From Aneurinibacillus aneurinilyticus ATCC 12856 (lineage in GTDB: Bacteria; Bacillota; Bacilli; Aneurinibacillales; Aneurinibacillaceae): DNA of 64,000 bases. The position numbers and the translations under genes were made by a program. Below are positions 8,601 through 23,387 of this stretch, piece by piece. The first letter of the stretch is position 1. The number at the start of each line of letters is the position of its first letter. The stretch spans positions 1,031 through 65,030 of the forward strand of contig NZ_KE952747.1 in assembly GCF_000466385.1 (NCBI RefSeq), given 5' to 3'. Below the pieces are notes generated by a model that made no database searches, had not been told where the DNA came from, and was given only the letters and a program-made list of their open reading frames with translations.

Positions 8601-9902
8601 TTATAAACCGCTTAGTTTCGAATCGTATGGCTGCTCATCGCCTTCAAGCGGCACGTTCTCCTTTTTGCTTAAATCGAGATATTCGTCCTTTCCAATAATG
8701 CCAGCCGCACGGTCCTGCTGCTCTAATTCGCGCGCTTTCGGTACAGACAGCCAATAAGCAAGCCCAACAGCAATCAAGCCGCCGCTTAGCTTACCGATAA
8801 TGACGGGTAAAATCATTGTTGGCTGAAAATTGGCAGTAAATGAAAGGTGATCACCGAGCAGAAAAGCCGCACACACCGCAAAGGAAATATTGATAACCTT
8901 ATCTTTTGGTGGCATCGTTTTTACCAATCGGAACATCGCCAGGATGTTTGCTATCGTCGCAAGAAATCCTGCACTACCTACCGGACTTAAGCCCAGTTTA
9001 CTACCGACAGCTTCCAGTGGCCTTGCCAAATATTTGCGAACAAGATAAACGAACGGAAACGCACCTGCCAGCATAATACCAATAAACCCTGCTGTTTCAA
9101 GACCACGGACAGGATTTGCTTCGTCGGCAATAATCGGATCGAATCCCCAGCTTCCGAAAATCATGCTGAAAAAGCCTGTAAAGTATTCGACAATCGATGC
9201 AACAAGTACGAGTTTAATAAACGCATCAATTCCTCGGCCAAACCAGATAAAACCTCGAATCATCGTATTTGGGAAAAAGCGGAGACCAAGTGCAATAATC
9301 ACCACGAGAATCACAAGCGGAGATAAATTTGTCATAATCTGACCAAAGCTCAATGCAAGTTGATACGTAGCCTCTCCATTCGTGGCAATAACTTCGCGTA
9401 TTTTTGCATCGGAAAGAACCATCAAAATGCTGGCAATGAATACGCCAATAGGTACAGTTAAAATACCGGACATAACGCCGAGTGCCATATATTTGTAGTC
9501 CCGCTTCTCCAGCATGGCAAGTCCCATCGGAATGGAGAATACAATCGTGGCGCCTGCCATATATCCTGTCATCGTCGCCATAATCCAGCCTTCTTTTGTC
9601 TGGGCCAGCTTCTCTGCAAGCTGATAGCCACCCATGTCCATAGCAATAATCGAAGTGGCCGCAATGGCCGGATCAGCACCCATCGCATGAAATAAAGGTC
9701 CAAACACCGTTTGGATTAACTGCGAAAGATAGGGAATTGAGGCCATAATCCCTGCAGCCGGGACAAAAATGTACCCAACGGAATGCAATCCTTCCATAAA
9801 CTCGCGTCCCAATCCCTTTTCGCTGTCACGAATCGCCGCAATAGCTCCAGCCACCGCAGCTATCATCATGATATAAATTACGTAATTCCCGATTTGTGCC
9901 AA
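8601..9902 (-). CDS. eutH: Ethanolamine transporter EutH
   Basis: EutH lets ethanolamine enter the cell, which matters mainly when little uncharged ethanolamine diffuses in. The protein has 433 residues and about ten hydrophobic segments. Recognisable family pieces are the N-terminal IGNYVIYIMMIAAVAGAIAA, AMGADPAIAATSIIAMDMGG near residues 75-94, and MTGYMAGATIVFSIPMGLAM near 111-130. The start is TTG with AAGGAGG eight bases upstream. It is the last gene of the eut operon, 40 bases after eutC1, and is followed by a terminator. Confidence 0.93.
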   Translation of the reverse strand: MAQIGNYVIYIMMIAAVAGAIAAIRDSEKGLGREFMEGLHSVGYIFVPAAGIMASIPYLSQLIQTVFGPLFHAMGADPAIAATSIIAMDMGGYQLAEKLAQTKEGWIMATMTGYMAGATIVFSIPMGLAMLEKRDYKYMALGVMSGILTVPIGVFIASILMVLSDAKIREVIATNGEATYQLALSFGQIMTNLSPLVILVVIIALGLRFFPNTMIRGFIWFGRGIDAFIKLVLVASIVEYFTGFFSMIFGSWGFDPIIADEANPVRGLETAGFIGIMLAGAFPFVYLVRKYLARPLEAVGSKLGLSPVGSAGFLATIANILAMFRLVKTMPPKDKVINISFAVCAAFLLGDHLSFTANFQPTMILPVIIGKLSGGLIAVGLAYWLSVPKARELEQQDRAAGIIGKDEYLDLSKKENVPLEGDEQPYDSKLSGL

Positions 9903-9941: not shown

Positions 9942-10835
9942 CTAACTATTCTGATTATTTTTCTTCCTCATATAACTGACTCCGCTGGCCTCATGCTGTA
10001 TAATATCTCCGATTAAATCAGCCAAATATGCGCCTGCCTCCACCGGAGGAAAGCCACCTTTATGAATGTTGGAAATTACGGTCCGATCAGCCTCTACCGT
10101 GTGTGGCCCTGGACGATATACCATATATGCACTCAGACTTTCGGACGTAGCAAGGCCAGGCCGCTCTCCAATAAGCGAGAGTACGACATCGCACTCTACA
10201 ATGGATGCGATATGGTCTTGCACCCAGACACGGGACCGTTTGACAAATAACGGACGGGCCACACTCATGTTTTTTAGCTTGAGCCCCTGTTCAAGCGAGG
10301 GAAGTATATCCCGGATATTCGCTTCCACAGCAGACGAGCTAAGCCCATCGCAAACAAGAATCTGCACATTCTTCTTCTTTTCCCCGTGCTCGGAAAGCCA
10401 GCGAACGGACTTCTCCGATAGTTTGCGCCCCTTGTCTAAATCCATAAGATAAGTCGCCATGTCCTCAGCTTGTGTTCTCAATACGGGTAAGCCCAATGAC
10501 TCGACAAGTTCTTCCGATACATCCTTCATTACTGCATCCTGCGCTGCCGCATGATCGATGCGGAACTGTAGATAGCTACGTGTCCGCAAACGTGTGCCGG
10601 CACGTCCAATGCCGATTCGGGCCGGAGTGACTTGCTGGGCTCTTTCAATCGCCTGTAGATGATGCGGACGCTCCACCCCCATCTCCTTCTCCTCCGAAAA
10701 GAAAATCACATCTTCTTCTTTTCGTTGCGGAACCACTTCTTCCGTTCGTACCTCTTCCATACGGGAAACTTCCAGCTTACGGGTCAACTCACGCAGCACC
10801 TGCTCAACTACCTGCTCGATTTTTTGCTGGTTCAT
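9942..10835 (-). CDS. eutC: Ethanolamine ammonia-lyase small subunit, copy 1
   Basis: EutC pairs with EutB to form the adenosylcobalamin-dependent lyase that splits ethanolamine into acetaldehyde and ammonia. The protein has 297 residues. The core contains ARIGIGRAGTRLRTRSYLQF, FRIDHAAAQDAVMKDV, VCDGLSSSAVEAN, IGERPGLATSESLSAYMVY and ISNIHKGGFPPVEAGAYLA, all typical of EutC. The first 20 residues (MNQQKIEQVVEQVLREL) form an amphipathic helix followed by a charged linker, the usual form of a microcompartment targeting peptide. The start ATG at 10835 has AGGTGA four bases upstream and follows eutB1 by four bases, so the two are translationally linked. Confidence 0.92.
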   Translation of the reverse strand: MNQQKIEQVVEQVLRELTRKLEVSRMEEVRTEEVVPQRKEEDVIFFSEEKEMGVERPHHLQAIERAQQVTPARIGIGRAGTRLRTRSYLQFRIDHAAAQDAVMKDVSEELVESLGLPVLRTQAEDMATYLMDLDKGRKLSEKSVRWLSEHGEKKKNVQILVCDGLSSSAVEANIRDILPSLEQGLKLKNMSVARPLFVKRSRVWVQDHIASIVECDVVLSLIGERPGLATSESLSAYMVYRPGPHTVEADRTVISNIHKGGFPPVEAGAYLADLIGDIIQHEASGVSYMRKKNNQNS

Positions 10836-10839
10836 CTTC

Positions 10840-12210
10840 TCACCTCGCTTCCTCAAAAATCGAAAGGTCACCTGCACGTTCGGTCAATCGCCCATCTTCC
10901 ATCAATCCCATCTTCTCCAACCATTTCTCGAATTCTAGGAGCGGACGTAAACCTAGTATCTCGCGTAAGCTGGCATCGTCATGATAGCTTGTATCCTGGT
11001 AGTTTAGCATAACATCATCGCCACCCGGTACGCCCATATAGAAGTTCGCACCCGCCAGCGCGGTCAGCATGCCCGCAATTTCCTGATCATTCTGGTCGGC
11101 ATACATATGATTCGTATACGTAGGGGCAATTCCCATCGGTAAGCCATGGAGCTTGCCCATGAACAAATCTTCCAAATCGGCGCGTATCATTTGACGGCCG
11201 TCATAGAGCGTTTCCGGTCCGATAAAGCCTGATACATTATTGACCATGAACGGCTTCCACTGACGCGCATAACCGTATGTACGCGATTCCAGCGTCTGCA
11301 TATCCACATCAAGATCCGCATCAAGCGACACTTCTGAGCCCTGCCCTGTCTCAAAATACATCACATTTGGTCCCGCTGAAGTACCGTGGCGCATCATCAT
11401 GTTCAAAGCTTCATCAAGCATATTTTTGTTCACGCCGAATGCATCGTTCGCTTTTTGTGTCCCAGCCAGACTTTGGAACATTAACGCGATCGGTGCTCCC
11501 TTTTCCAATGCCTGCATCTGGGTAGTGATATGTGCAAGTACACAATTTTGTGTGGGAATCTCCCATTTCATCATAAAATCATGCGACATATGCAACAGAC
11601 GCGAGACAGATTCTACTGTATCGACATTTGGGTTGATACCGATAACAGCATCACCCGCTCCATAAGACAATCCTTCCTTCATTGAAAAAAGAATCCCCTC
11701 CGGATCGTCGGTAGGGTGATTCGGCTGGCAACGAAATGCCAGTCTTCCCTTCTCTCCGATGCGTGTATTACAGTGAGCAGTCGGACGGATTTTCTGTGAA
11801 GCCATGACCAAATCCATGCTGGACATGAGCTTGGCTACAGCTGCTATCATCTCACTTGTAAGTCCTCTGCCGAGTCGAGTAAGCTCATGAGATCCTGTCC
11901 GATGAGACAGTATATAATTACGCAGTTCGCCAATGCTCCAGTTTTTTATTTCATTATAAATGGAAAGGTTGATTCCATCATAAATAATTCGGGTTACCTC
12001 ATCCTCTTCATACGGAATGACCGGATTCTCATACACGTCTGCAAGAGTAAACTCACTGAGTACAACCTTCGCCGCCATACGCTCAAGCGAAGATTGTGCT
12101 GCGACGCGTGCCATCTGATCGCCCGACTTCTCTTCACTTGCCTTCGCTAATACATCTTTAACGGATGCAAACGAATAAGAACTGCCTTTTATGACACATG
12201 AAAGCTTCAT
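10840..12210 (-). CDS. eutB: Ethanolamine ammonia-lyase large subunit, copy 1 (altered substrate site)
   Basis: This is the TIM-barrel catalytic subunit of the B12 enzyme, 456 residues, near the family norm. It lines up without gaps with copy 2 through the catalytic core. In E. coli numbering, which fits exactly here, it keeps Arg160, Gln162, Asn193 and Glu287. Position 362, the aspartate that holds the substrate amino group, is Ala: the local motif reads APTYTNH instead of DICYTNH in copy 2. Cys161 replaces Leu in the CQPNHPTD motif. The barrel motifs YFETGQGSE and ADQND are intact. So it is probably folded and active on something, but affinity for ethanolamine may be changed. The start ATG has GGAGG upstream. 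Confidence 0.92.
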   Translation of the reverse strand: MKLSCVIKGSSYSFASVKDVLAKASEEKSGDQMARVAAQSSLERMAAKVVLSEFTLADVYENPVIPYEEDEVTRIIYDGINLSIYNEIKNWSIGELRNYILSHRTGSHELTRLGRGLTSEMIAAVAKLMSSMDLVMASQKIRPTAHCNTRIGEKGRLAFRCQPNHPTDDPEGILFSMKEGLSYGAGDAVIGINPNVDTVESVSRLLHMSHDFMMKWEIPTQNCVLAHITTQMQALEKGAPIALMFQSLAGTQKANDAFGVNKNMLDEALNMMMRHGTSAGPNVMYFETGQGSEVSLDADLDVDMQTLESRTYGYARQWKPFMVNNVSGFIGPETLYDGRQMIRADLEDLFMGKLHGLPMGIAPTYTNHMYADQNDQEIAGMLTALAGANFYMGVPGGDDVMLNYQDTSYHDDASLREILGLRPLLEFEKWLEKMGLMEDGRLTERAGDLSIFEEAR

Positions 12211-12240: not shown

Positions 12241-12717
12241 CTACCGCTTGCGGCGTTTATCCGCATCCTGCCCTTCTTCAGGTTCATTAGGCTTCTTATC
12301 TTCTATCACTGTCGGCTCCGTACTTGCCTGCATAGCTGCATTCTGCGGTGGAGCGGCTATTTCTTTCGTTTCCTTTTTACGCCTGTTTCCCGTACCGGTG
12401 CCCGCTTTTGTCGTATCTTGAGCAGGCGTAGGCGAAGCAACCGGTTCAGGCTTTTTTAGAATGTGATGTACCTCGTCATCCGGCCGGGGAATGAAATGGC
12501 TTGAAACAAGTTCACCAACACGCTCTGCAGCCGCTCGTCCCGCTTCAAGAGCTGCCTGCACGGCGCCTACATCACCTTCAACAAAAACGGTGACTAATGC
12601 AGCATCCACTTTCTCTTGTGATAGCAGCCGTACATCGGCTGCCTTTACCATCGCATCGGCCGCTTCAATCGATCCAATCAATCCTCTCGTTTCTATCATA
12701 CCTAGTGCCTTTGCCAT
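12241..12717 (-). CDS. Microcompartment shell protein, BMC domain with long tail (EutK-like position)
   Basis: The protein has 158 residues. Residues 1-92 are a standard hexamer-forming BMC domain (LGMIETRGLIGSIEAADAMV at the start, VGELVSSHFIPRPDDEV at the end). The last 65 residues are a low-complexity, Pro/Thr/Lys/Glu-rich tail ending in KRRKR, probably disordered. EutK of Salmonella likewise has a BMC domain with an added C-terminal part. Here the extension is not a folded winged helix but a charged tail. I start it at the ATG at 12717, six bases after AGGTG, rather than at GTG 12726, which overlaps the eutN stop. Confidence 0.88.
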   Translation of the reverse strand: MAKALGMIETRGLIGSIEAADAMVKAADVRLLSQEKVDAALVTVFVEGDVGAVQAALEAGRAAAERVGELVSSHFIPRPDDEVHHILKKPEPVASPTPAQDTTKAGTGTGNRRKKETKEIAAPPQNAAMQASTEPTVIEDKKPNEPEEGQDADKRRKR

Positions 12718-12722
12718 CGTTT

Positions 12723-12995
12723 TCACCTGCTTTCCACATCAATTGAGTCTACAATACCGATGATTACCGCATCCACCGGCACATCTTGTTCCGGAATCGC
12801 AAAACGGGCGGCACTGCCCATTGTCACCATGACAGTGTCGCCAATGCCGGCACCGATGCGATCAGCAGCAATGAGTGGTGCATCAATCGGCTTGCCGCCT
12901 GTATCTTCCAATTGTACAAAGAGAAACTTTAATCCGGTTAGCCCGTCTTCCTTGCGGGTCGCCCATACGTTGCCGATTACCGTTCCGATGCGCAT
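12723..12995 (-). CDS. eutN: Microcompartment vertex protein EutN
   Basis: EutN/CcmL pentamers cap the corners of the polyhedral shell. The protein has 90 residues. The family look is clear: MRIGTVIGNVWATRKEDGLTG at the start, a central strand with DTGGKPIDAPLIAADRIGAGIGD split by turns, and the C-terminal DAVIIGIVDSID. It sits between the unknown eut gene and the tailed BMC gene with seven- and few-base gaps, so it is part of the operon. Confidence 0.92.
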   Translation of the reverse strand: MRIGTVIGNVWATRKEDGLTGLKFLFVQLEDTGGKPIDAPLIAADRIGAGIGDTVMVTMGSAARFAIPEQDVPVDAVIIGIVDSIDVESR

Positions 12996-13002
12996 AGCGC
13001 AC

Positions 13003-13734
13003 TCACCTCTCGTCTACCTGAATGGTAACGCCGTTCGTACGCGCCGCGTCCCGGGCCAAAGGAGTGACCACGGTGGAAGAGGACACATAAAGCACCCGCT
13101 CCTTCGCCTGCTGCACATCGTTTTGCGTCAATACTTTTCCTTCAAATACGGTCGTTCGTTCAGAGCGAGAGGTGCGTCCTTCCATGCTCTCTCCTGTAAC
13201 CTCCTCCTCAACGAAAGTGTCAGCCAGCGCCAACACATCGGCCATTGAACCAAGGGTTGCACCGAACGCGCCAAGTTCTGCCGCATGCGTTCGAATATGT
13301 TGACGGTACCGTTTAGCTGCTGGAGAAAGCACAGCTTCTCCAGCTCTTACGTCCAACAACCACTTCAGCGATGAACATGGAACGAGCAGGGCAGGGAGTC
13401 CCCGCAAAAGCCCTTCTGCCAGCAATTGGCTGGCGACGGTTCCTGTCAAGCCTAATGCCCCACGCATCAATAAATCCTGATCTGTCTGCAAAAAAACCAG
13501 CCGTTTCACATCGCGGTGAAGCGAAACATGCTCCATCTCTTCTATCTGCGCATGATAGACATTCCATCCTGCCTGTAATTCTTTTTCAACGACGGCTACC
13601 GCCTGCGACTCGAATTCGCCCGGATAGACGAGCAGCAGGCCAGGCCGGGTCGGCCGAGATCGCTCCGTTTCAGGACGCAGACGACCGATTACTTCGGCCA
13701 CAATGCGCTCGATAAGGGCAGTATCGTACGTCAT
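13003..13734 (-). CDS. Eut-cluster protein of unknown role (TIGR02536-like)
   Basis: The protein has 243 residues. The first 18 residues (TALIERIVAEVIGRL) form an amphipathic helix like a shell-targeting peptide. The middle has Rossmann-like strands (PGLLLVYPGEF, RLVFLQTDQ) and the pattern PALLVPCSSLKWLLDVRAGE. The C-terminal segment VLTQNDVQQAKERVLYVSS, then TPLARDAARTNGVTIQV, matches a segment shared by several microcompartment cluster proteins. It resembles the eut proteins of unknown function found in Gram-positive clusters (TIGR02536 from memory). The ATG overlaps the eutM stop (TAATG). No catalytic residues can be named. Confidence 0.7.
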   Translation of the reverse strand: MTYDTALIERIVAEVIGRLRPETERSRPTRPGLLLVYPGEFESQAVAVVEKELQAGWNVYHAQIEEMEHVSLHRDVKRLVFLQTDQDLLMRGALGLTGTVASQLLAEGLLRGLPALLVPCSSLKWLLDVRAGEAVLSPAAKRYRQHIRTHAAELGAFGATLGSMADVLALADTFVEEEVTGESMEGRTSRSERTTVFEGKVLTQNDVQQAKERVLYVSSSTVVTPLARDAARTNGVTIQVDER

Positions 13735-14027
13735 TATTGTTGCGGTTCAAGCTTCGGTAAGATGCTTTCGAGCTCGTTATGCGGGCGAGGAATGACATGT
13801 ACGGAAAGAAGTTCGCCTACGCGCTGCGCTGCAGCCGCACCAGCATCGGTCGCTGCTTTTACTGCGCCAACATCACCGCGTACCAGTACCGTCACCAGAC
13901 CGCCGCCAACATGCACTTTGCCTACAAGATGAACGTTTGCTGCTTTTACCATTGCATCTGCAGCCTCTACGGAAGCAACCAAACCTTTTGTCTCAATCAT
14001 ACCTAGTGCCGTTAATTCTCTTGCCAT
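13734..14027 (-). CDS. eutM: Microcompartment hexameric shell protein EutM
   Basis: This is the main facet protein of the Eut shell. The protein has 97 residues, one BMC domain: [20 protein letters not shown], then [20 protein letters not shown] and the C-terminal [12 protein letters not shown]. The predicted pore loop around residue 40 (VGKVHVGGG) carries Gly and His. The gene is preceded by a good GGAGGAG site and followed with a TAATG overlap by the unknown eut gene. Confidence 0.94.
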
Positions 14028-14089: not shown

Positions 14090-15622
14090 CTATAACTGTG
14101 CAAGCACTTTATCGACCAGGGTAGCAACGGTTTGCTTGTCTATCTTGCCGACCGGACCGATTTTAGCAAGAACTTGCGCGACAGCCTGTTCAATCTGCTC
14201 TTCTTCGCCTTTCATTTGCAGTTTCGCCTGTCCTCTATCCGGCACACCACTGCCCGGTTTCGGTACAGCGATATCTTTTGTGCCGTATGCAAGACGTTTA
14301 AGATTCATCAAGTGGTGCGCTGTCAGGTTGTCCGACGTAATGTTGCCACCAAATGTACCGCAGCCTAAGGTCAGCGACGCAGCCAGGCCGGTGGTAGCTC
14401 CTACAGCACCGAGCGCCGACGGCGTATTGACGAGAATGCGCGATACAGGCAAACGCAATGCCAGCGTCCGGGCTACTTCCGTATCTTCCGTATGAAGCGA
14501 CAGTGTATGCCCACGGCCACCAAGCGCCAGCAAACGCTCGCACAAGTCGCTCCCTTCCTGCCACCCATTTACTGTATAAAATGCGAGAATAGGCGAGAGC
14601 TTCTCAATCGAAAACGGAATGTTCTTGCCTACCTCCGTCTCTTCCGCCAGCAAAAGCGTCGTTTCCTTCGGCACCCGAATACCTGCCATCTCAGCGATAA
14701 CCGCCGCCTTCTTGCCAACGATGGCGGAATTCAGCTTCCCACGTACCGGAGAAATTACGTCCTCCACTTTCTTCTTCTCTTCCTCGCTCAAGATGTATGC
14801 ACCGTTGTTACGAAAAGCACGCAATGCTTGTTCCCGTATGTTACGGTCGGCAATGACCGCCTGTTCCGAGGCGCAAATCGTTCCATTATCAAATGTTTTG
14901 CTATCGATAATGCGTCGCACCGCCTGCGCAACGTTCGCCGTTTTCTCGATATATACCGGTACATTGCCCGGGCCAACCCCGTATGCGGGTTTGCCAGAGC
15001 TGTATGCTGCACGGACAAGACCACTGCCCCCGGTCGACAAAATCAAGTTAACGTCACGATGCTTCATCAATCCTTCTGTCGCATCCATCGTCGGTTCTTC
15101 AATCCAGCCAATGATGCCTTCCGGCGCTCCAGCGGCCACAGCAGCCTGCTGGCAAATACGGGCCGCTTCCACCGTGCAGCGGGCCGCTGAAGGATGTGGA
15201 CTGAATACAATAGCGTTGCGCGCCTTAAGCGCGATTAAACTTTTAAAAATTGCGGTAGACGTCGGATTGGTTACCGGTACAATACCGGCAATTACACCAA
15301 ACGGCGAGGCAATTTCCACCACTTTTTCTTCTGGAAGTTCCCGAACGATACCTACTGTCTTTACCCCGGCAATCGATTCGTACACATCCTTTGATCCAAC
15401 CTGGTTTTTGATGGTTTTGTGTTCCACAATACCAAGCCCTGTTTCTTCTACCGCAAGCCTGGCGAGCTGATGCGCCTGTTCGTAGGCCGCATCAGCCATC
15501 GCCTTGACAATGCGGTCGACCTGTTCCTGTGAATAGCCTTTAAATTCCTGCTGCGCCTCCTTCGCCCGACGCACGGCATGACGCATGGCTTGCAGCGATT
15601 GCAAGTCTTTGTCGAGTTGCAC
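14090..15622 (-). CDS. eutE: Acylating acetaldehyde dehydrogenase EutE
   Basis: EutE turns acetaldehyde and CoA into acetyl-CoA with NAD inside the shell. The protein has 510 residues. The catalytic cysteine lies in NGTICASEQAV near residue 260, with the nucleotide-binding VNLILSTGGSGLVRAAYSSG upstream and YGVGPGNVPVYI as a family marker. The C-terminal 60 residues follow a Gly/Pro linker and form two predicted helices, the last one KQTVATLVDKVLAQL, which looks like a C-terminal encapsulation peptide. The start is GTG with AAAGGAG nine bases upstream. Confidence 0.93.
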   Translation of the reverse strand: MQLDKDLQSLQAMRHAVRRAKEAQQEFKGYSQEQVDRIVKAMADAAYEQAHQLARLAVEETGLGIVEHKTIKNQVGSKDVYESIAGVKTVGIVRELPEEKVVEIASPFGVIAGIVPVTNPTSTAIFKSLIALKARNAIVFSPHPSAARCTVEAARICQQAAVAAGAPEGIIGWIEEPTMDATEGLMKHRDVNLILSTGGSGLVRAAYSSGKPAYGVGPGNVPVYIEKTANVAQAVRRIIDSKTFDNGTICASEQAVIADRNIREQALRAFRNNGAYILSEEEKKKVEDVISPVRGKLNSAIVGKKAAVIAEMAGIRVPKETTLLLAEETEVGKNIPFSIEKLSPILAFYTVNGWQEGSDLCERLLALGGRGHTLSLHTEDTEVARTLALRLPVSRILVNTPSALGAVGATTGLAASLTLGCGTFGGNITSDNLTAHHLMNLKRLAYGTKDIAVPKPGSGVPDRGQAKLQMKGEEEQIEQAVAQVLAKIGPVGKIDKQTVATLVDKVLAQL

Positions 15623-15651: not shown

Positions 15652-16305
15652 TTACCAGGTAAGTGGCTGGCGCGCCACCCGGATAATGCTGTCACGAAAT
15701 GCGTTAGCCGCAGCTTGACAAGCCGATTGTGTACCTGTCAACAGTCCGCCGCCAAAATTCGTTTCTGAAGGCGGGCCATAGAAAGCGGACAGTTGTACGT
15801 CCGCTGCTTTCAGAGCCGCGTCCAAGCCATACATCGCTTCAAGCGGTGGGGCAATTAAATACGCAAGCGGTTCGCCTTCATTAATACCTGCAATTTTGGA
15901 CAAATAGGCTCCTGTACGTGCGATAACATGTGCATATAGCGCGTGACTTCCATCATCGTTCAATGCTTCAAAATGCGCATCGTGCTCAATTATATTTTGT
16001 GCAGCTTCTATTCCGCTCTCCACCTCATCGGGAGTCGGTCCGGCGATAATGCCGATGAACTCCCCGGAAAGAGGACCAGAAGCGTGAGCTGCGCCCGCGT
16101 AAAACGAACGCGCATATACAACTTCCACTTCCGCCCGCTTTGTTGCTTCATCGAGCGCTGTATACCCGATATCGTCAATCGTCGTTGTAATCATGCCCAG
16201 ACTGCGGTGTCCGGACGTAAGCTGCAACTGTTTTGCCAGTGCTGCATCCACATTCGGAATCATCCGTACCGCCAGCACTTCCGCTTTAATCGGCTGAAGT
16301 TCCAC
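15652..16305 (-). CDS. eutL: Microcompartment shell protein EutL (tandem BMC)
   Basis: EutL forms trimers of fused BMC domains with a gated pore. The protein has 217 residues, the family length. Markers are PIKAEVLAVRMIPNVDAALA at the start, HRSLGMITTTIDDIGYTALDE, VYARSFYAGAAHASGPLSGE, and FYGPPSETNFGGGLLTGTQ. The start is GTG, eight bases after AAGGAGG. It follows eutC2 by 17 bases. Confidence 0.94.
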   Translation of the reverse strand: MELQPIKAEVLAVRMIPNVDAALAKQLQLTSGHRSLGMITTTIDDIGYTALDEATKRAEVEVVYARSFYAGAAHASGPLSGEFIGIIAGPTPDEVESGIEAAQNIIEHDAHFEALNDDGSHALYAHVIARTGAYLSKIAGINEGEPLAYLIAPPLEAMYGLDAALKAADVQLSAFYGPPSETNFGGGLLTGTQSACQAAANAFRDSIIRVARQPLTW

Positions 16306-16322: not shown

Positions 16323-17324
16323 CTATTGTTCCTTGCGTACAAGCGAAACGCCGCTTGCTTCATACCGGAGGATTTTCTGGACAACATTGCCCAGGTACGC
16401 CCCTGCTTCCACCGGCGGGATACCCCCTGTATGAATGTTCGAGATAACCATACGCTCGGCTTCCACAGTACCGTATCGCGGCTTGTAGCATAAATATGCG
16501 CTGAGGGATTCGGCACTGACCAGCCCTGGTCTCTCGCCGATAAGCAGTACAACGACTTCCGGCTCCAGCACTTCGCCGATGTCATCCATGACTGCAACGC
16601 GCCCCCTTTCCACGAAGAACGGTGTTCCCATCTCAATGCCAAGCGCTGTTAGCGACTGCTTAAGCGCCAGGTACGTATCTTCCACGTTCGCTTCTACAGC
16701 CTGGGAGCTAAGTCCATCGGAGACAACAATTTGCACTTTCGGCTTATGCTTGCAGCGCTCCTTCAACGTTCTTTTGGCCTCATCGCTCAAGCGCCGTCCT
16801 AAGTCCGGACGAAGGATGTACTCCTGCTTGTTATCCACACGGGTAACAACGCTAAATAGATTCAGCCTTTTCAATACGTCTTCAGACACCGTACCGTATA
16901 CGGCATCGACCGCAGCTGCGTGGTCGAAGCGGAATGAAAGCCATGCATCCGTCTTGGGCCGGAGCCCGGCACGGCCAATTCCGATACGAGCCGGAGTTTG
17001 TTTCATCAGCTCTGCTAGCTGTTCCTTGTTTTTTGGCTTGCTAATACCAGGTTTTTTGCTGGCGGCATCTTCTGTTTTTATTTGCTGTGCTGCCTGTTTA
17101 ACAATAGGGACAGCCTGGGACACGGATGATTCCGATACGACTGACGCTTCTACGCTTTTCGGTGCTTGTGCTTCTCCGACATGGTTCCATACTTTAACAG
17201 AACCATAATGTCTTTTCTCCTGCTGTGATTTCGACTCGGTGACAGTGTTGGTCTGTCCGGATTCCGCGTCTTTCAACTTCTCCATGACAAGCCGGGTCAC
17301 GGTTTCGATTAGCTGCCGATCCAT
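16323..17324 (-). CDS. eutC: Ethanolamine ammonia-lyase small subunit, copy 2
   Basis: The protein has 333 residues. An N-terminal amphipathic helix (MDRQLIETVTRLVMEKL) is joined by an unusually long linker of about 85 residues, rich in Ser, Gln, Val and Lys, to the EutC core, which starts near PARIGIGRAGLRPKTDAWL. The core has VSDGLSSQAVEANVED, IGERPGLVSAESLSAYLCY and ISNIHTGGIPPVEAGAYLG. The N-terminal helix is the likely shell-targeting peptide. I use the ATG at 17324 because AGGAGG is seven bases upstream; the ATG at 17330 is too close to it. Copy 1 has a shorter linker. Confidence 0.92.
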   Translation of the reverse strand: MDRQLIETVTRLVMEKLKDAESGQTNTVTESKSQQEKRHYGSVKVWNHVGEAQAPKSVEASVVSESSVSQAVPIVKQAAQQIKTEDAASKKPGISKPKNKEQLAELMKQTPARIGIGRAGLRPKTDAWLSFRFDHAAAVDAVYGTVSEDVLKRLNLFSVVTRVDNKQEYILRPDLGRRLSDEAKRTLKERCKHKPKVQIVVSDGLSSQAVEANVEDTYLALKQSLTALGIEMGTPFFVERGRVAVMDDIGEVLEPEVVVLLIGERPGLVSAESLSAYLCYKPRYGTVEAERMVISNIHTGGIPPVEAGAYLGNVVQKILRYEASGVSLVRKEQ

Positions 17325-17335
17325 ATTCATCCCTC

Positions 17336-18700
17336 CTATTCCGAGAAAATCGTCGGGTCGCCTGCCCTCTCAGTCAGCCTGCCGTCTTCTGTAATTCCCA
17401 TATACTCCAGCCATGCTGCAAACTTAGGTGCTGGCTTCCGCTCAAGTGTTTGACGCAGTGTAGCAATGTCGTGATAGCTCATCGACTGGTAATTCAGCAT
17501 ACAGTCATCGCCCATCGGTGCGGCAATAATGAAGTTAACGCCAGCAGCCGTCAGCAGTACGCCCAACTCCTCTATATCGTTCTGATCGGCACGGATATGA
17601 TTCGTATAGCAAATATCTACTCCCATCGAAATGCCGTGCATCTTACCCATAAAATGATCTTCAAGCCCGGCACGAATAACCTGTTTATTGTCATACAAAT
17701 ATTCAGGTCCGATGAAGCCGACAACCGTGTTCAGAATATACGGATCGAACTTACGGGCAAAGCCATAATTACGGGCTTCAAGCGTCATCTGATCGATTCC
17801 GTGATGCGCTTCTGCAGATAGCTCCGAACCTTGTCCGGTTTCAAAATACAGGCGCTGCGGTCCACGGCTTGTGCCTTTTTCCATAATCATCTGCTGCGCT
17901 TCCTCCAGAAGCGATACACTGATGCCAAATGAACGATTGGCAGCCTCTGTTCCTGCGATGCTCTGGAAAATCATCGCTGCCGGCGCTCCTTGTTCAATCG
18001 CTTTCATCTGGGTGGTTACATGTGCCAGTACACAGTTTTGTGTCGGAATGTTCCAGGCCTCAATAAAATCGTGCGTGGCATGCAGCAGACGCTTTACGCT
18101 TTCTACGGAATCGTCTACCGGATTAATACCGATGACCGCGTCGCCCACTCCATAGGACAATCCTTCTTTCATGGAGGCAAGCATCCCATCTACATTGTCG
18201 GTCGGATGATTCGGCTGCAGCCGCGATGCAAGGGTTCCTTTCTGTCCGATAGCAATATTGCACCGGGAGATGATTTCGACTTTATTAGCCGCATGAATCA
18301 GGTCAAGATTGGACATCAATTTGCCTGCAGCGGCAATCATTTCGCTCGTCAGACCGCGGCTAAGCCGTTTCAATTCACGGTCGCCTACGCTGTCATCAAG
18401 AATATACTCACGCAGCTTGGCTACTGTCCAGCCTTTGATATCCGCAAAAATTGTATCGTTTACGTGTTCTTCGATAATGCGGGAGACTTCATCTTCCTCT
18501 GGCGGAAGAAGCGGATGGTTTCGGATATCCTCCAGCGTCAAGCCGGCCAGTACTTGTTTTGCAGCAATTCGTTCCTGTACCGTTTCTGCAGCCAATCCCG
18601 CAAGCCTGTCCCCGGACTTTTCTTCATTGGCTTTGGCAAACAATTCTTTTAGATTTTTAAATTCGTATGTTTGGCCTTGCAGCATTGTTTTCAGCCTCAT
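17336..18700 (-). CDS. eutB: Ethanolamine ammonia-lyase large subunit, copy 2 (canonical)
   Basis: The protein has 454 residues. All substrate residues known from the E. coli enzyme are present at identical numbers: Arg160 and Gln162 in SRLQPNHPTD, Asn193 in VIGINP, Glu287 in YFETGQGSE, Asp362 in DICYTNH, with Val326, Phe329 and Leu402 also kept. It should therefore be a true ethanolamine ammonia-lyase with eutC2, which starts 12 bases downstream. The upstream neighbour eutA encodes the reactivating factor. Confidence 0.94.
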   Translation of the reverse strand: MRLKTMLQGQTYEFKNLKELFAKANEEKSGDRLAGLAAETVQERIAAKQVLAGLTLEDIRNHPLLPPEEDEVSRIIEEHVNDTIFADIKGWTVAKLREYILDDSVGDRELKRLSRGLTSEMIAAAGKLMSNLDLIHAANKVEIISRCNIAIGQKGTLASRLQPNHPTDNVDGMLASMKEGLSYGVGDAVIGINPVDDSVESVKRLLHATHDFIEAWNIPTQNCVLAHVTTQMKAIEQGAPAAMIFQSIAGTEAANRSFGISVSLLEEAQQMIMEKGTSRGPQRLYFETGQGSELSAEAHHGIDQMTLEARNYGFARKFDPYILNTVVGFIGPEYLYDNKQVIRAGLEDHFMGKMHGISMGVDICYTNHIRADQNDIEELGVLLTAAGVNFIIAAPMGDDCMLNYQSMSYHDIATLRQTLERKPAPKFAAWLEYMGITEDGRLTERAGDPTIFSE

Positions 18701-18721: not shown

Positions 18722-20176
18722 TTATGAATGAAACGCGAGCGTTTTGACAACTACCGGTACTACGCCGCTATGCAGCATACGGCCAATATCAAGATAGTCT
18801 CCATTCTCGACCCGAATCTGGTCGATGCAAAGAATGCCGCGCTTTTGTTGTATAACCTGAAGCGATTGACCGAGCACTTTAGCGATATCGTTCTCCGTAA
18901 CGACCACAATCGGTTGGCGTTGATCGGGTTGACGACACAGCGCTTCATGCAACGAGACGGCAATATGCTGTACATCATGAAACCGTAGATGTGGCACCTC
19001 GGACAAATACAAAGCAAAATTGCGCCCTTCCCGTCCTGGATCATACAGTTCAAGCGCCTGTTCCACTGCCCGCATAATTTTATCCTGTATGTTTTCTGTT
19101 TCGTATTCGAACGAAATTCGATGGACAGGTAGATTTTTAAGCGGTAACACTTCGTGTTCAACCTGAATGGTAGCGCCACTTATTTCCGTGGTCTGTGTAC
19201 CGGCTCCCAGCACCGTTGCTCTTACAGTTTCAAGCGGATGAATCCACCTCCAGCGAGTAAGCTCCGGATGAGTACGTAGCGTCTCAGCTAACTGCACGCC
19301 CATATCATGATAAACAGATGCACTCGTTCCGCCTGTATCGTTTGGCTCCAAGCGGTAAATGCATTCACTTACCCCTCCGGAAAACATAATGTCTTCTACC
19401 GCTACATCCCAGTTCGGCGGATGACCTAACAATAATGGCTCATCTTCGGCAGTCACTTGTCCAGCAAGAATGCGGGCGAGTGTTTCCGCCATAGCGTTTG
19501 CGACCTGACCGATTATCGGGGAATCAGATGCATTGCCTATACTCAGGTCCCATTTTCGCTTCTCAAGCAGTAACTGCACCGGACGAGACAGCTTTGAAAT
19601 TCGCTTCTCCGCATATTCGATAAGTCTGCCCCCGATATGCAGTGTGCATGTTCCTTTGAACAATCCAGCTTGATATACAGCGATGTTCGCAGTACCACCG
19701 CCGATATCAATATTGGCAACTGTACGGCCTGTCCGTTTCGAATGTTCGTACGCGCCTGAACCCTTAGCCGCGATCATCCCTTCAAGATCAGGACCTGCGG
19801 TAGCGACGAGAAACTCTCCTGCTTCGTCAGACAATCGGCGCACCATTTCCTCCGCGTTTCGTTTGGTCGCCGTTTCACCGGTAATAATAACGGCTCCGGT
19901 CTGAATTTCGTTCTCGCGTATCCCAGCTTTTGCGTATTCGCTGCGTACGAGCGCGAAAACGGCTGGCATGTCAATTTCATCGCCTTGTGAAAGCGGTGTA
20001 CGATAAATCGGACTTTTGTACAAAATTTCAGTATTAATGATTTCGATGCGTGGTACATGGCTTGCACCCGCTGTATTCATTAACGAAAAACGGCTGATGA
20101 CCAGTTTCGTTGTGCTCGTTCCAATATCGATGCCCGCACTGATAATATGTTCCATGCCACGATGTGTCCGGCGCAT
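18722..20176 (-). CDS. eutA: Ethanolamine ammonia-lyase reactivating factor EutA
   Basis: EutA swaps damaged cobalamin out of the lyase using ATP. The protein has 484 residues of the actin-like ATPase superfamily: phosphate-1 motif SAGIDIGTSTTKLVISRF near residues 12-29, phosphate-2 motif VANIDIGGGTANIAVYQAG near 150, and the adenosine-side MFSGGVSECIYRL near 268. I start at the ATG at 20176, which has AAAGGAGG six bases upstream. The longer frame to 20239 would translate through the leader terminator. It directly precedes eutB2C2 and may serve both lyases, since no second eutA is seen. Confidence 0.92.
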   Translation of the reverse strand: MRRTHRGMEHIISAGIDIGTSTTKLVISRFSLMNTAGASHVPRIEIINTEILYKSPIYRTPLSQGDEIDMPAVFALVRSEYAKAGIRENEIQTGAVIITGETATKRNAEEMVRRLSDEAGEFLVATAGPDLEGMIAAKGSGAYEHSKRTGRTVANIDIGGGTANIAVYQAGLFKGTCTLHIGGRLIEYAEKRISKLSRPVQLLLEKRKWDLSIGNASDSPIIGQVANAMAETLARILAGQVTAEDEPLLLGHPPNWDVAVEDIMFSGGVSECIYRLEPNDTGGTSASVYHDMGVQLAETLRTHPELTRWRWIHPLETVRATVLGAGTQTTEISGATIQVEHEVLPLKNLPVHRISFEYETENIQDKIMRAVEQALELYDPGREGRNFALYLSEVPHLRFHDVQHIAVSLHEALCRQPDQRQPIVVVTENDIAKVLGQSLQVIQQKRGILCIDQIRVENGDYLDIGRMLHSGVVPVVVKTLAFHS

Positions 20177-20198
20177 GATCTGCCTCCTTTCTCCTTCG

Positions 20199-20257
20199 CA
20201 AAAAGGCGCCTTATGCGATGAGCCGATATCTCTCATCACATAAGGCGCCTTTGCCTT
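20199..20257 (-). promoter_or_regulatory. Leader terminator with ANTAR-type hairpin before eutA
   Basis: On the minus strand a very strong stem (about 20 bp, one mismatch, arms beginning AAAGGCGCCTTATG) ends in a run of five T and lies between eutV and eutA. Its 5' arm can instead form a small hairpin, AAGGC-AAAGGC-GCCTT, at 20242-20257. That hairpin has a six-base loop with A at position 1 and G at position 4, the loop rule known for RNA sites of ANTAR proteins such as EutV. Binding there would block the terminator. A clear first hairpin (P1) of the usual pair could not be found. Confidence 0.7.
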
Positions 20258-20293: not shown

Positions 20294-20887
20294 CTACAGA
20301 ACAGATTGTACATCTAATTTTCGGTTATGCAGAATATGATTGGCGACTTCGTCCATCGTCTTGCGTGTATTCATACAATAGGTACGCATCGTTTGATAGG
20401 CACGCTCTTCGTTGAGCTGGTATACATCCATAAGGATCCCTTTCGCCCGTTCTATCCGTTTGCGGCTTTCCATCTTTTTCTCCATCTCTTTCAAACTTCC
20501 CATTAATGATTTAACACGCCGCGCCTGACCGATGGCGACCTCTACAGCCGGCATTAAATCCCTTTCGGTAATCGGTTTAACAAGATAGCCGAAGATGAAC
20601 GCCTCTCTCGCCTCCGCGATTAATTCTTCCTCTGTATACGCAGTCAAGAGAATGGTTGGAATATCGAAGGAACGATTAATAATTCTGGCTGCTTTTACTC
20701 CGTTCATTTTTGGCATTTTCACGTCCATTACGATTAAATCTGGAACGTGTTGGGCGGCCAACTCGATGGCAGCTTCTCCGTTATTCGCTTCCGCTACGAC
20801 ATCATAGCCGGCCTCCTGCAGCATTTCTTTGATATCCATGCGCAGAATAGACTCGTCATCAACCACCATGATTCTGCCTTTATTCAT
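20294..20887 (-). CDS. eutV: ANTAR response regulator EutV (antiterminator)
   Basis: The protein has 197 residues. The receiver domain (residues 1-120) has the acidic pair Asp10-Asp11, phospho-acceptor Asp55 in LIVMDVKMPK and the conserved Lys in YLVKPIT. The C-terminal ANTAR domain (about 135-190) has the signature ERAKGILMDVYQLNEERAYQ. Phosphorylated EutV dimers bind paired RNA hairpins and prevent termination of eut transcripts in Enterococcus. Its start codon lies four bases after the eutW stop, so kinase and regulator are coupled. Confidence 0.93.
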   Translation of the reverse strand: MNKGRIMVVDDESILRMDIKEMLQEAGYDVVAEANNGEAAIELAAQHVPDLIVMDVKMPKMNGVKAARIINRSFDIPTILLTAYTEEELIAEAREAFIFGYLVKPITERDLMPAVEVAIGQARRVKSLMGSLKEMEKKMESRKRIERAKGILMDVYQLNEERAYQTMRTYCMNTRKTMDEVANHILHNRKLDVQSVL

Positions 20888-20891
20888 GCGC

Positions 20892-22334
20892 TCATTCCCC
20901 CTGTTCCACCGGAAAAGAAACGCTGGCCCGCGTTCCCCCGTTCACATTCTGCATAATATTGAATGTTCCTTCCAGGTCAAAGTGCGTCAAGTTACGAACA
21001 ATCTCAAGTCCAAGCTGGTCCGTAGCAGACTGCGCTTCAAAGCCTTTTCCATTATCATCTACACACAGCCGAATTTCATCTCCTGTAAGGCGGAACTCAA
21101 TACGGATTATTCCTGACGGCCTGCCGACAAAACCATGCTTTAAACAATTCTGAACCAGCTCGGTCAGGATAAGGGCAAGCGATACCGCCTGTTTGGATTG
21201 AAGAGCAATCTCCTCAATCTCCATTATGATGTCGACCTTACATTCTTCAGAGGACATATTGTACACCAACATGCGTGCCACTTTCTCGATAACCTGATTC
21301 ATGGCGACACGTTCAATGCCATTATAAGACAGGACTTCATGAACGGTTGCAATGCTGACAATCCGGTTTAAGCACTCCTGGTAAAGCCCCTTTGCTTCAT
21401 CCGGAACACCTCGTCTCATCTGTAGACGTAAAAGTCCCGCAACTGTCTGCAAATTGTTCTTAACCCGGTGGTGAATCTCCTGGATGACCGCTGATTTAAC
21501 CATTAACTGGCGCTCCTTGTCTCTTAAATCGGTAATATCCTGCAAATATACGAGCAGACGCCGCTTCTTATCTTTTTGCTGCAGGCAGACGCTACGTAGA
21601 ATATATACCGCCCCCTGATTGTGGACTTCACGCTGAAGCACTCCATCATGTAAATAATCGCTTTCTTCAATGAATGGAAATATTTCGTTTACTTTTGCAT
21701 TTAGAAAGTTCTCACGAGTTCGCTCGCTATGCAATTCCATTAATCCGATAGCCGAATTGTTCGCATATAAAATTGAGCCATCTTCATACAGAAGAAGCAG
21801 CGCTTCCTCAATAACGTCTGGAATAGATTGCTCTTTAGCAATCAAATCCCAAAAGGTACGGCTGAACTCCTGGGTCGTTTCCGACAGGAGGGCCAGTTCT
21901 TTTTCATGTTTGACCTGAAGGGTAATATCCTGTTCCAGAATCAACATACCGATCGTCTGCTGTTTGTCATTCTTTATAGGCACGACATTCTGTTTGACAT
22001 GGTGCCCTTCCTGTGTAACCGCCCTGTTTATCAGCGCAGGCTTTCCGGTTCGATAGGTACGGAATACACCCGGCTCGTACGATTCGAATACCTCTTTGCC
22101 CACTACGGTTTCTTTATATATTGAGTGCGTTGTCGTAGGGGATGCTTCTGCTACTACAATGACGGCTTTTCTATCCTTCATCGGGCAATCGATGAACATA
22201 TTAGCCTGTGATACATCCGCCATCATCTGTAGCATTTCGCTTTTGCTTACGATAATTTGAATATCTTCCTCGGTAAGTGAAGTGTATTGCTGGCATAGAT
22301 GCCTGATATGTTGAGTATCTAGCACATCGATCAT
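20892..22334 (-). CDS. eutW: Ethanolamine-sensing histidine kinase EutW
   Basis: The protein has 480 residues and no membrane segment, so it is a soluble sensor. The N-terminal part (1-140) is the kinase-associated sensor domain of PF12282 type. A PAS-like domain follows (about 170-260, with NNSAIGLMELHSERTRENFL). The HisKA_2 phospho-acceptor is EIHHRVKNNLQTVAGLLRLQ, and the ATPase domain contains ELVQNCLKHGF and VDDNGKGF. I start at the ATG at 22334 with AAAGGAG eight bases upstream; the longer frame to 22421 covers the leader terminator. In Enterococcus EutW senses ethanolamine and phosphorylates EutV. Confidence 0.92.
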   Translation of the reverse strand: MIDVLDTQHIRHLCQQYTSLTEEDIQIIVSKSEMLQMMADVSQANMFIDCPMKDRKAVIVVAEASPTTTHSIYKETVVGKEVFESYEPGVFRTYRTGKPALINRAVTQEGHHVKQNVVPIKNDKQQTIGMLILEQDITLQVKHEKELALLSETTQEFSRTFWDLIAKEQSIPDVIEEALLLLYEDGSILYANNSAIGLMELHSERTRENFLNAKVNEIFPFIEESDYLHDGVLQREVHNQGAVYILRSVCLQQKDKKRRLLVYLQDITDLRDKERQLMVKSAVIQEIHHRVKNNLQTVAGLLRLQMRRGVPDEAKGLYQECLNRIVSIATVHEVLSYNGIERVAMNQVIEKVARMLVYNMSSEECKVDIIMEIEEIALQSKQAVSLALILTELVQNCLKHGFVGRPSGIIRIEFRLTGDEIRLCVDDNGKGFEAQSATDQLGLEIVRNLTHFDLEGTFNIMQNVNGGTRASVSFPVEQGE

Positions 22335-22352
22335 GAGAAAGACTCCTTTTAA

Positions 22353-22408
22353 CAAAAAAGGCTCCTTCAACATGCACACTTCCCCATTGTTGATAGGCGC
22401 CTTTGCCT
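22353..22408 (-). promoter_or_regulatory. Leader terminator with ANTAR-type hairpin before eutW
   Basis: On the minus strand the arms AAAGGCGCCTATCAACA and TGTTGAAGGAGCCTTT form a long stem followed by six T, just ahead of the eutW ribosome site. The 5' arm overlaps the alternative hairpin AGGC-AAAGGC-GCCT (22395-22408), whose six-base loop has A1 and G4. The loop and stem core are the same as in the eutA leader (shared AGGCAAAGGCGCCT), so both look like EutV-controlled terminators. Confidence 0.7.
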
Positions 22409-22465
22409 GTTTGATATTCATTTTATTATCATTATCATACTAAAAAACATAAGCGATGTAAAGGT

Positions 22466-22966
22466 TTACATATCGGAAATATTTGTTGATTCCAAATTCG
22501 AACAATACTCTTTCATTTGCGCACGAGAAGCACATGCTACGAGCGAACGGATTTCCTCCAGACCCTGCTTCTTGTAGGCGGATACATATATGATGGGGCC
22601 ATCCGGCATCGCTCTCCTTATCTGTTTTGCCGCACGAACGCGATCAGCATTCGGTGCATCGATTTTGGTCACCACGCCAATAGACAATTTCGGAATACCG
22701 GCAGCGAATCCGGGAGGGAAAATCGTTTTCGACTTGGTTGCATCTTGAATGAACAGCACATGCGTCACTTCCAGCGCCGTAGCCATAATATTTTTGTAGA
22801 ATAACGGATTCTCCGTATACTCGCCCGGTGTATCTACAATCCAGTCATAATATAGCAGCGATTGTGTTTTTACCGCTGGCACATCACGGTCAAGCAGCGC
22901 ATTCGTTAGCGTAGACTTGCCGGCGCCAATCGCTCCGATAAGCATCGCACGATGTTGCTTCGCCAT
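22466..22966 (-). CDS. eutP: EutP/PduV-family small GTPase-like protein
   Basis: The protein has 166 residues. The Walker A motif is GAIGAGKSTL at residues 12-21, DTPGEY (Walker B-like) is near 46, and TKID takes the place of the usual NKxD near 101. EutP homologues have been linked to acetate kinase activity or to shell placement in the cell; which applies here is unknown. It is the second gene of the operon, 18 bases after eutS. Confidence 0.88.
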   Translation of the reverse strand: MAKQHRAMLIGAIGAGKSTLTNALLDRDVPAVKTQSLLYYDWIVDTPGEYTENPLFYKNIMATALEVTHVLFIQDATKSKTIFPPGFAAGIPKLSIGVVTKIDAPNADRVRAAKQIRRAMPDGPIIYVSAYKKQGLEEIRSLVACASRAQMKEYCSNLESTNISDM

Positions 22967-22984
22967 AAAGCCCCTCCCCTTCCG

Positions 22985-23326
22985 TTACGATTTAGTAATA
23001 CGTGAAGGCGTATAGCCTAGATTGTGTTCCAGAAATTCATTAATTTGCTGCATTGCTGTCTCCACTTCAGATACGCTGCCTACCAATACAAGACTTCCAG
23101 TAAACCGATCGAGAAATCCGATGGTTACGTGTGCCGCTTTGGTCGCCAAATCACCGGCGATAATCACCGTTTCGCTCGGTGTTAATGTCAGAATACCAAT
23201 AGCTCCACCATACGGAATACCCAACTTATCGAACATGTCTTCATCCGGATTGGCGATGAGGTGGCTCAGTGTAATCTGTTTCCCCGGAACGAATTCCTGG
23301 ATAAACCGCTTCTTTTCTTCCATCAT
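22985..23326 (-). CDS. eutS: Microcompartment shell protein EutS
   Basis: EutS is a permuted BMC protein that forms bent hexamers and shapes the shell. The protein has 113 residues with [20 protein letters not shown] near the start, [20 protein letters not shown], and [19 protein letters not shown]. The ATG at 23326 has GGAGG seven bases upstream; the longer frame to 23383 lies in the leader and is rejected. It is the first gene of the eut operon. Confidence 0.92.
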
Positions 23327-23352
23327 GCATCTTCCTCCAATCGAACGCAGAA

Positions 23353-23387
23353 AAGCCCCTGTCCAATAAGACAGGGGCTTCATTGCC
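23353..23387 (-). promoter_or_regulatory. Leader terminator before eutS
   Basis: A perfect 11-bp stem (AAGCCCCTGTC and its complement) with a six-base loop and a short T-run lies between the promoter and the eutS start on the minus strand. The 5' arm overlaps a weak 3-bp hairpin, GGC-AATGAA-GCC, whose six-base loop also has A1 and G4. The terminator itself is clear; the ANTAR reading here is weaker than at eutA and eutW because of the short stem. Confidence 0.6.

Follow-up and report, generated by a model that had tools for sequence, protein, structure and literature searches.

Ala362 EutB proteins form a separate family linked to choline demethylation genes and predicted to act on N-methylated ethanolamines

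The eut operon and its two EutB-EutC pairs

The window, which is the whole stretch of 64,000 nucleotides of Aneurinibacillus aneurinilyticus ATCC 12856 (genome G000) that was analysed, carries on its minus strand a eut operon with two EutB-EutC pairs (Table 1). The genome has exactly two EutB, both of them in this operon. Gene maps were made with a simple longest-ORF caller and include some wrong-strand calls. The open reading frame of eutC1 is listed from 10877; the methionine of MNQQ at 10835, just past the eutB1 stop, is the likelier start. The gene upstream of eutB1 encodes the second BMC-H protein of the operon and its C-terminal tail is long, charged, and rich in Pro and Thr. The EutA-type factor is the only one seen in the operon and presumably serves both EutBC pairs. 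An Rfam scan of window positions 5000-26000 returned no matches.

Table 1. Features of the eut operon, in window coordinates
Feature	Position	Strand	Evidence or remark
eutH transporter	8601..9902	-	directly downstream of eutC1; NF011668 689 bits
eutC1, small-subunit partner of eutB1	9942..10835	-	NF003971 275 bits; 3abo_B 2e-59
eutB1 (Ala362), large subunit of a predicted AdoCbl-dependent lyase for N-methylated ethanolamine	10840..12210	-	456 aa; NF011649 641 bits
eutB1 codon P363	11122-11124	-	
eutB1 codon 362, GCC	11125..11127	-	Ala in place of Asp362
eutB1 codon R160	11731-11733	-	
BMC-H shell protein with C-terminal extension (EutM/EutK-like)	12241..12726	-	NF012018 95 bits, below cut-off
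EutN/CcmL-type BMC vertex protein	12723..12995	-	family-model match
Shell-associated protein, PduM-like C-terminus	13003..13734	-	weak match
EutM shell protein	13734..14027	-	NF012018 above cut-off
EutE acylating acetaldehyde dehydrogenase	14090..15622	-	TIGR02518 632 bits, above cut-off
EutL shell protein	15652..16305	-	family-model match
eutC2, partner of canonical eutB2	16323..17330	-	family-model match
eutB2, canonical ethanolamine ammonia-lyase large subunit, Asp362	17336..18700	-	alignment, residue check
EutA-type reactivating factor	18722..20239	-	sequence and position; resembles EutA of other loci
EutV/EutW-type ANTAR response regulator and sensor kinase	20294..22421	-	sequence; homologues adjoin other eut operons
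EutP-like and EutS-like genes, operon start	22466..23383	-	sequence; homologues adjoin other eut operons

Residue 362 and the structure of EutB1

An earlier note on this DNA had claimed that both EutB copies keep the E. coli numbering and that the first has APTYTNH where the second has DICYTNH, and this count was correct. EutB1 aligns without gaps to the EutB of E. coli (3abo_A) and Listeria (2qez), and in the alignment to the solved structures it has Arg160, Gln162, Asn193, and Glu287 but Ala at 362, while EutB2 has these four and Asp362. Ala362 is followed by Pro363 in EutB1, as it is in nearly all members of the Ala form. In the E. coli structures Asp362 contacts the substrate amino group, the amine being held by Glu287, Gln162, and Asp362, with Gln162 holding an amine N-H.

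The AlphaFold model of EutB1 (mean pLDDT 92.6) has the TIM-barrel fold of the ethanolamine ammonia-lyases (EAL) and superposes on 3abo_A with an rmsd of 1.0 A and a TM score of 0.98. The protein has a EutC partner, and its match to the curated family model NF011649 is full-length and above the cut-off of 554 bits; the match to PF06751 is 671 bits. Of the five contacts expected in an EAL, four are kept. EutB1 is therefore like EutBC (EC 4.3.1.7; E. coli 3abo, Listeria 2qez) in fold, length, four of five contacts, and the context of EutC, EutA, and a microcompartment. It differs in the change of Asp362 to Ala, in 14 further nearly fixed positions, in its separate clade, and in the link of that clade to choline demethylation in anaerobes.

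A second Asp occupying the place of Asp362 in space had been named in the earlier note as an outcome that would count against its reading. No neighbouring Asp has moved into position 362, because the alignment is ungapped there and the model superposes on 3abo_A. However, acids have been gained in the Ala clade at positions 406 and 412, where they are invariant or nearly so, and these could partly replace Asp362.

Extent of the Ala362 clade

Of 172 aligned EutB sequences, 89 have Asp at position 362, 81 have Ala, one has Gly, and one has a gap. In a maximum-likelihood tree of 91 sequences all of the Ala rows lie on one side of a single branch (bootstrap 100, SH-aLRT 99), so that the Ala form, as the earlier note had wondered, is a distinct clade. 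It is not a chance substitution in EutB1, since 81 of the 172 sequences share it and the set that does so is one clade. The Ala362 EutB are a separate, widespread family. EutB1 falls within the supported clade and has Ala362 together with Ser327, Thr334, Gln376, and Asp406. In a tree made from residues 1-290 alone a second label change is needed, though no supported branch demands it, so the N-terminal half by itself does not fully resolve the clade.

The clade spans Bacilli, anaerobic Bacillota, Thermodesulfobacteriota, and Synergistota. The closest named relatives of the window sequence are Aneurinibacillus. Both EutB copies are found in 7 of 11 genomes of the same family, where copy 1 is 83-96% identical. 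In an even draw over the class, proteins like copy 1 (78-83%) recur in several families, followed by a gap down to 62%. A scan of contigs added Brevibacillus, Lysinibacillus, Bacillus, and Thalassobacillus, and also Desulfosporosinus, Sporomusa malonica, Candidatus Formimonas warabiya DCMF, Geosporobacter, Petrocella, Desulfobacterium, and Synergistota MAGs. The single Gly362 EutB (LGMGCVYTNH; L231:4768-6151) comes from genome G514, which has four EutB, and carries Thr327, Gln376, and Asp406; it is either an intermediate or a third type.

A search of the open literature, with most subscription journals outside it, turned up no previous account of an Ala362 EutB family, no paper joining EAL with Asp362, and no paper joining dimethylethanolamine with EutB or EAL.

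Divergence between the Ala and Asp classes

There are 15 nearly fixed differences between the Ala and Asp classes and all of them are within residues 294-412: positions 294, 296, 304, 325, 327 (V to S), 334 (Y to T), 345 (G to D), 361, 362 (D to A), 363 (to P), 376 (to Q), 379, 388, 406 (to D), and 412 (to D). If positions are treated as independent, the chance of all 15 falling in this segment is about 2e-9. Identity over residues 291-415 is 0.82 within the Ala class, 0.77 within the Asp class, and 0.60 between them; for residues 1-290 the values are 0.68, 0.65, and 0.59. It is chiefly the substrate half of the barrel that sets the Ala clade apart from canonical EutB. All 172 EutB share R160, Q162, N193, and E287 without exception, and EutC has no fixed difference between the Ala-linked and Asp-linked classes. 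The picture is of a conserved enzyme in which the amine side of the pocket has been rebuilt.

Purifying selection acts on the Ala-EutB (dN 0.06-0.14; synonymous sites are saturated). Decay to a pseudogene was rejected, as EutB1 is intact, selection is purifying, and a whole clade has the Ala form. The earlier note had favoured a changed substrate over decay, and the distinct clade, the selection, the four invariant contacts, and the concentration of differences in the substrate half all agree with it there. A regulatory subunit, which it had offered as another reading, was rejected as the main one. Except where the contig ends, the Ala-EutB have their own EutC after them, and the Ala form is the only EutB in five genomes, one from the Bacilli (G185) and four from the anaerobe draw (G476, G487, G581, G614). 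In one genome, cobalamin uptake and salvage genes are also found beside EutB'C' (the prime denotes the Ala form). In this Brevibacillus-family genome, G320 (L048:4867-8474), BtuF, BtuC, ABC, and CobU-like genes directly follow EutB'C', with an ANTAR regulator, and no shell genes were recognised within 20 kb. EutB1 would, judging from these sequences, be active rather than regulatory.

Linkage to choline demethylation genes in anaerobes

In Desulfosporosinus the operon runs EutB'-EutC'-EutA, a PocR-AraC regulator, a corrinoid protein, an APH-family kinase, an MttB-family methyltransferase, a second corrinoid protein, an MtgA-like methyltransferase, a HAD phosphatase, and a corrinoid activase. 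Its core is common to six genomes of the genus. The MttB has orthologues in S. malonica (78%) and DCMF (73%), both of which also have the kinase/MttB/HAD set. Eubacterium limosum demethylates choline through the choline kinase MthK, the MttB-family protein MthB, which acts on phosphocholine, and MthC and MthA, with dimethylaminoethanol as the end product (2025; PMC12155760). S. malonica and Ca. Formimonas warabiya are named in the same paper among the carriers of co-localised MthK and MthB homologues. It is through these two sets of orthologues that the genes beside Ala-EutB are tentatively tied to MthB and MthK.

A draw of 299 genomes, even over the phylum of Desulfosporosinus, was searched once with Ala-EutB and once with MttB. 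The demethylase was found in 7 of 12 genomes with Ala-EutB, 3 of 18 with the Asp form only (one of them a EutB fragment not covering position 362), and 1 of the other 269. Ala genomes are enriched over the rest of the draw (p=6e-9; 1e-7 with the centre genome left out) and modestly over Asp-only genomes (p=0.045); because the genomes are related, these p-values assume more independence than there is. Near the EutB gene itself, the demethylase is present at 4 of 11 Ala loci and none of 20 Asp loci.

The clearest case is G476, where Pyl-MttB is followed in order by two choline-kinase-like (APH) genes, an EamA-type transporter, the demethylase, HAD, EutB', EutC', and EutA. One Ala-EutB operon of S. 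malonica directly adjoins PylB-PylC-PylD and a TAG-containing MttB (L186:4310-9432), and a second copy is on a contig with PylS, a choline-kinase-like gene, and a corrinoid protein (L192:1126-3654). A TAG-containing MttB is also found upstream of the Ala-EutB operon in MAG SKS1.bin35. The Pyl-type MttB of S. malonica and SKS1.bin35 match TIGR02369 (trimethylamine methyltransferase) above the cut-off. A new finding is that Ala-EutB in anaerobes are tied to the choline demethylation genes together with a HAD phosphatase.

The association is not universal. The MttB demethylase is absent from 5 of the 12 Ala genomes of the draw and from all Bacilli tested, including the window genome. None was found in the tested genomes of a subclade with tandem EutB-EutB' (Geosporobacter, Petrocella, Synergistota), which may differ from the other Ala-EutB. 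MtbB, the expected follow-on enzyme, was uninformative, being absent from S. malonica and Desulfosporosinus and present in DCMF and one MAG.

Predicted substrate and mechanism

The substrate and chemistry of EutB1C1 can be predicted from the pocket and the linked genes. One amine acceptor has been lost and two are kept, as would suit an amine that bears one or two methyl groups and has fewer N-H. The invariance of Gln162 argues for at least one N-H, and therefore for N-methyl- or N,N-dimethylethanolamine rather than choline. On balance, the sequences favour EutB1-EutC1 being an active AdoCbl-dependent lyase for one of these two compounds, which would release acetaldehyde and methylamine or dimethylamine. 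The example substrate given in the earlier note, 2-aminopropanol, is without support here; the gene neighbourhoods point to an N-methylated ethanolamine derived from choline. The methylation state could still be otherwise. The acids at 406 and 412 might alter this reading, and the Pyl-MttB beside some Ala-EutB, a trimethylamine enzyme by name, could point to choline itself.

In the proposed mechanism, the 5'-deoxyadenosyl radical would take hydrogen from C1 of a substrate whose hydroxyl is held by Arg160, Asn193, and Glu287 and whose remaining N-H is held by Glu287 and Gln162. The N-methyl group or groups would occupy the former Asp362 space, now Ala-Pro. The amine would be released and the acetaldehyde would pass to EutE, serving both EutBC pairs, with plain ethanolamine being handled by the canonical EutB2C2. 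In anaerobes, the kinase would convert choline to phosphocholine, MttB-family/corrinoid demethylation would give dimethylethanolamine phosphate, and the HAD phosphatase would then yield dimethylethanolamine for EutB'C'. DCMF, which carries Ala-EutB, turns choline into monomethylamine and acetate, for which its authors proposed a route via glycine betaine (PMC8163858). Ala-EutB acting on N-methylethanolamine would explain these products.

Without a demethylase (there is no MttB match in the window genome), the substrate would have to be imported in A. aneurinilyticus. In aerobic Bacilli of this kind EutH might do so; directly after eutC1, it is the only importer candidate in place. The substrate proposed for the Bacilli is extrapolated from anaerobic relatives whose proteins are about 65-71% identical. 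A search of the window genome for a methylamine-oxidation gene (PF11927, dimethylamine-oxygenase type) found none. The neighbours in Brevibacillus are regulators and, in one genome, cobalamin uptake genes, which give no clue to the substrate.

Other explanations of the Ala form

The substrate could be choline itself, making the Ala form a B12-dependent choline lyase that yields trimethylamine and acetaldehyde and a counterpart of the glycyl-radical CutC. The Pyl-type MttB adjoining Ala-EutB in S. malonica and SKS1.bin35 and the PylS and choline-kinase-like gene beside the second S. malonica copy would suit this, and the oxygen-sensitive CutC is not easily usable by aerobes. However, Gln162 is invariant in the clade, the modules adjoining EutB' in Desulfosporosinus and G476 would phosphorylate and demethylate choline first, and DCMF, which bears Ala-EutB, neither forms detectable trimethylamine from choline nor uses it (PMC8163858). 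Choline is accordingly an improbable substrate. The same low probability attaches to another amino alcohol, such as 2-amino-1-propanol or 1-amino-2-propanol, for whose carbon skeleton the change of Asp to Ala would make room. The residue lost is an amine contact, the linked genes serve choline demethylation, and the EutE of the operon is an acetaldehyde dehydrogenase, all of which speak against it, even though canonical EAL accepts 2-aminopropanol (a substrate in PMC10440813) and many Ala loci of the Bacilli are without methylation genes.

An ethanolamine isozyme with altered kinetics, in which D406 or D412 replaces Asp362 and the nearby genes strip choline down to ethanolamine, is unlikely, if less so than either of these. 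It would account for the invariant acids newly gained at 406 and 412, the Ala form stands alone in some genomes within full eut operons, and the demethylase is also present in some Asp-only genomes. It is hard to see under this explanation why most Ala genomes keep a canonical EutB too, some of them in tandem, if both do the same job, or why 15 nearly fixed differences lie in the substrate half. Least probable is that the Ala form has lost catalysis or has a regulatory role, for instance as a structural member of mixed hexamers. Six anaerobe loci, with a canonical EutB directly before Ala-EutB and a single EutC after the pair, could be read in this way, but the catalytic residues are invariant, the Ala form has its own EutC where this can be tested and is the sole EutB of some genomes, and cobalamin uptake genes adjoin a stand-alone EutB'C'.

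Relationship to known systems

The Ala-EutB loci resemble the E. limosum MthKBCA system (PMC12155760) in their kinase, MttB-family, corrinoid, and MtgA-like genes. Whereas E. limosum ends at dimethylaminoethanol, these loci add the HAD phosphatase and EutB'C', a predicted continuation to acetaldehyde. In outline the predicted reaction is also that of CutC, in which a radical mechanism breaks the C-N bond of a choline-type compound to leave acetaldehyde and a methylamine, but CutC is a glycyl radical enzyme and Ala-EutB belongs to the AdoCbl-dependent EutB family. The EUT2D loci (PMC4207490) are EUT2-type with a PocR-domain regulator, such as the Desulfosporosinus Ala-EutB locus also has, and are presumably the same loci; in the available portion of that paper they are described as ethanolamine loci and no second EutB type or link to choline was found.

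The universal annotation of EutB is ethanolamine ammonia-lyase, a label under which the Ala form of the window also passes. It is rather probable that the Ala form is an unrecognised AdoCbl enzyme for N-methylated ethanolamines, perhaps with choline among them, which yields acetaldehyde and a methylamine; it would supply the step that is missing after anaerobic choline demethylation and offer aerobic Bacilli a B12 route to these compounds. If so, a large group of EutB annotations is wrong in substrate. It would also explain how some choline-demethylating anaerobes gain energy from the two-carbon backbone, and the origin of the methylamines that such anaerobes release, which is relevant to methane formation fed by methylamines. 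The clade would then be a natural test of the role of Asp362 in a classic B12 radical enzyme, with a family that compensates elsewhere in the pocket.

Related genes also adjoin eut genes in some genomes with the Asp form. In the MAG Candidatus Cryptoclostridium obscurum (G418; L154), HAD, the MttB demethylase, and the kinase adjoin EutS-EutP and the only EutB found is of the Asp form; in this organism the demethylation of choline may go further. A choline-kinase-like gene is upstream of the Asp-type eut operon at L248 and L252 (G498 and G699), with a corrinoid protein as well at L248, and both genomes carry the demethylase. At the six tandem loci (L096, L098, L099, L100, L102, and L119), where the canonical EutB is followed directly by Ala-EutB and then by one EutC, a single small subunit may serve both large subunits.
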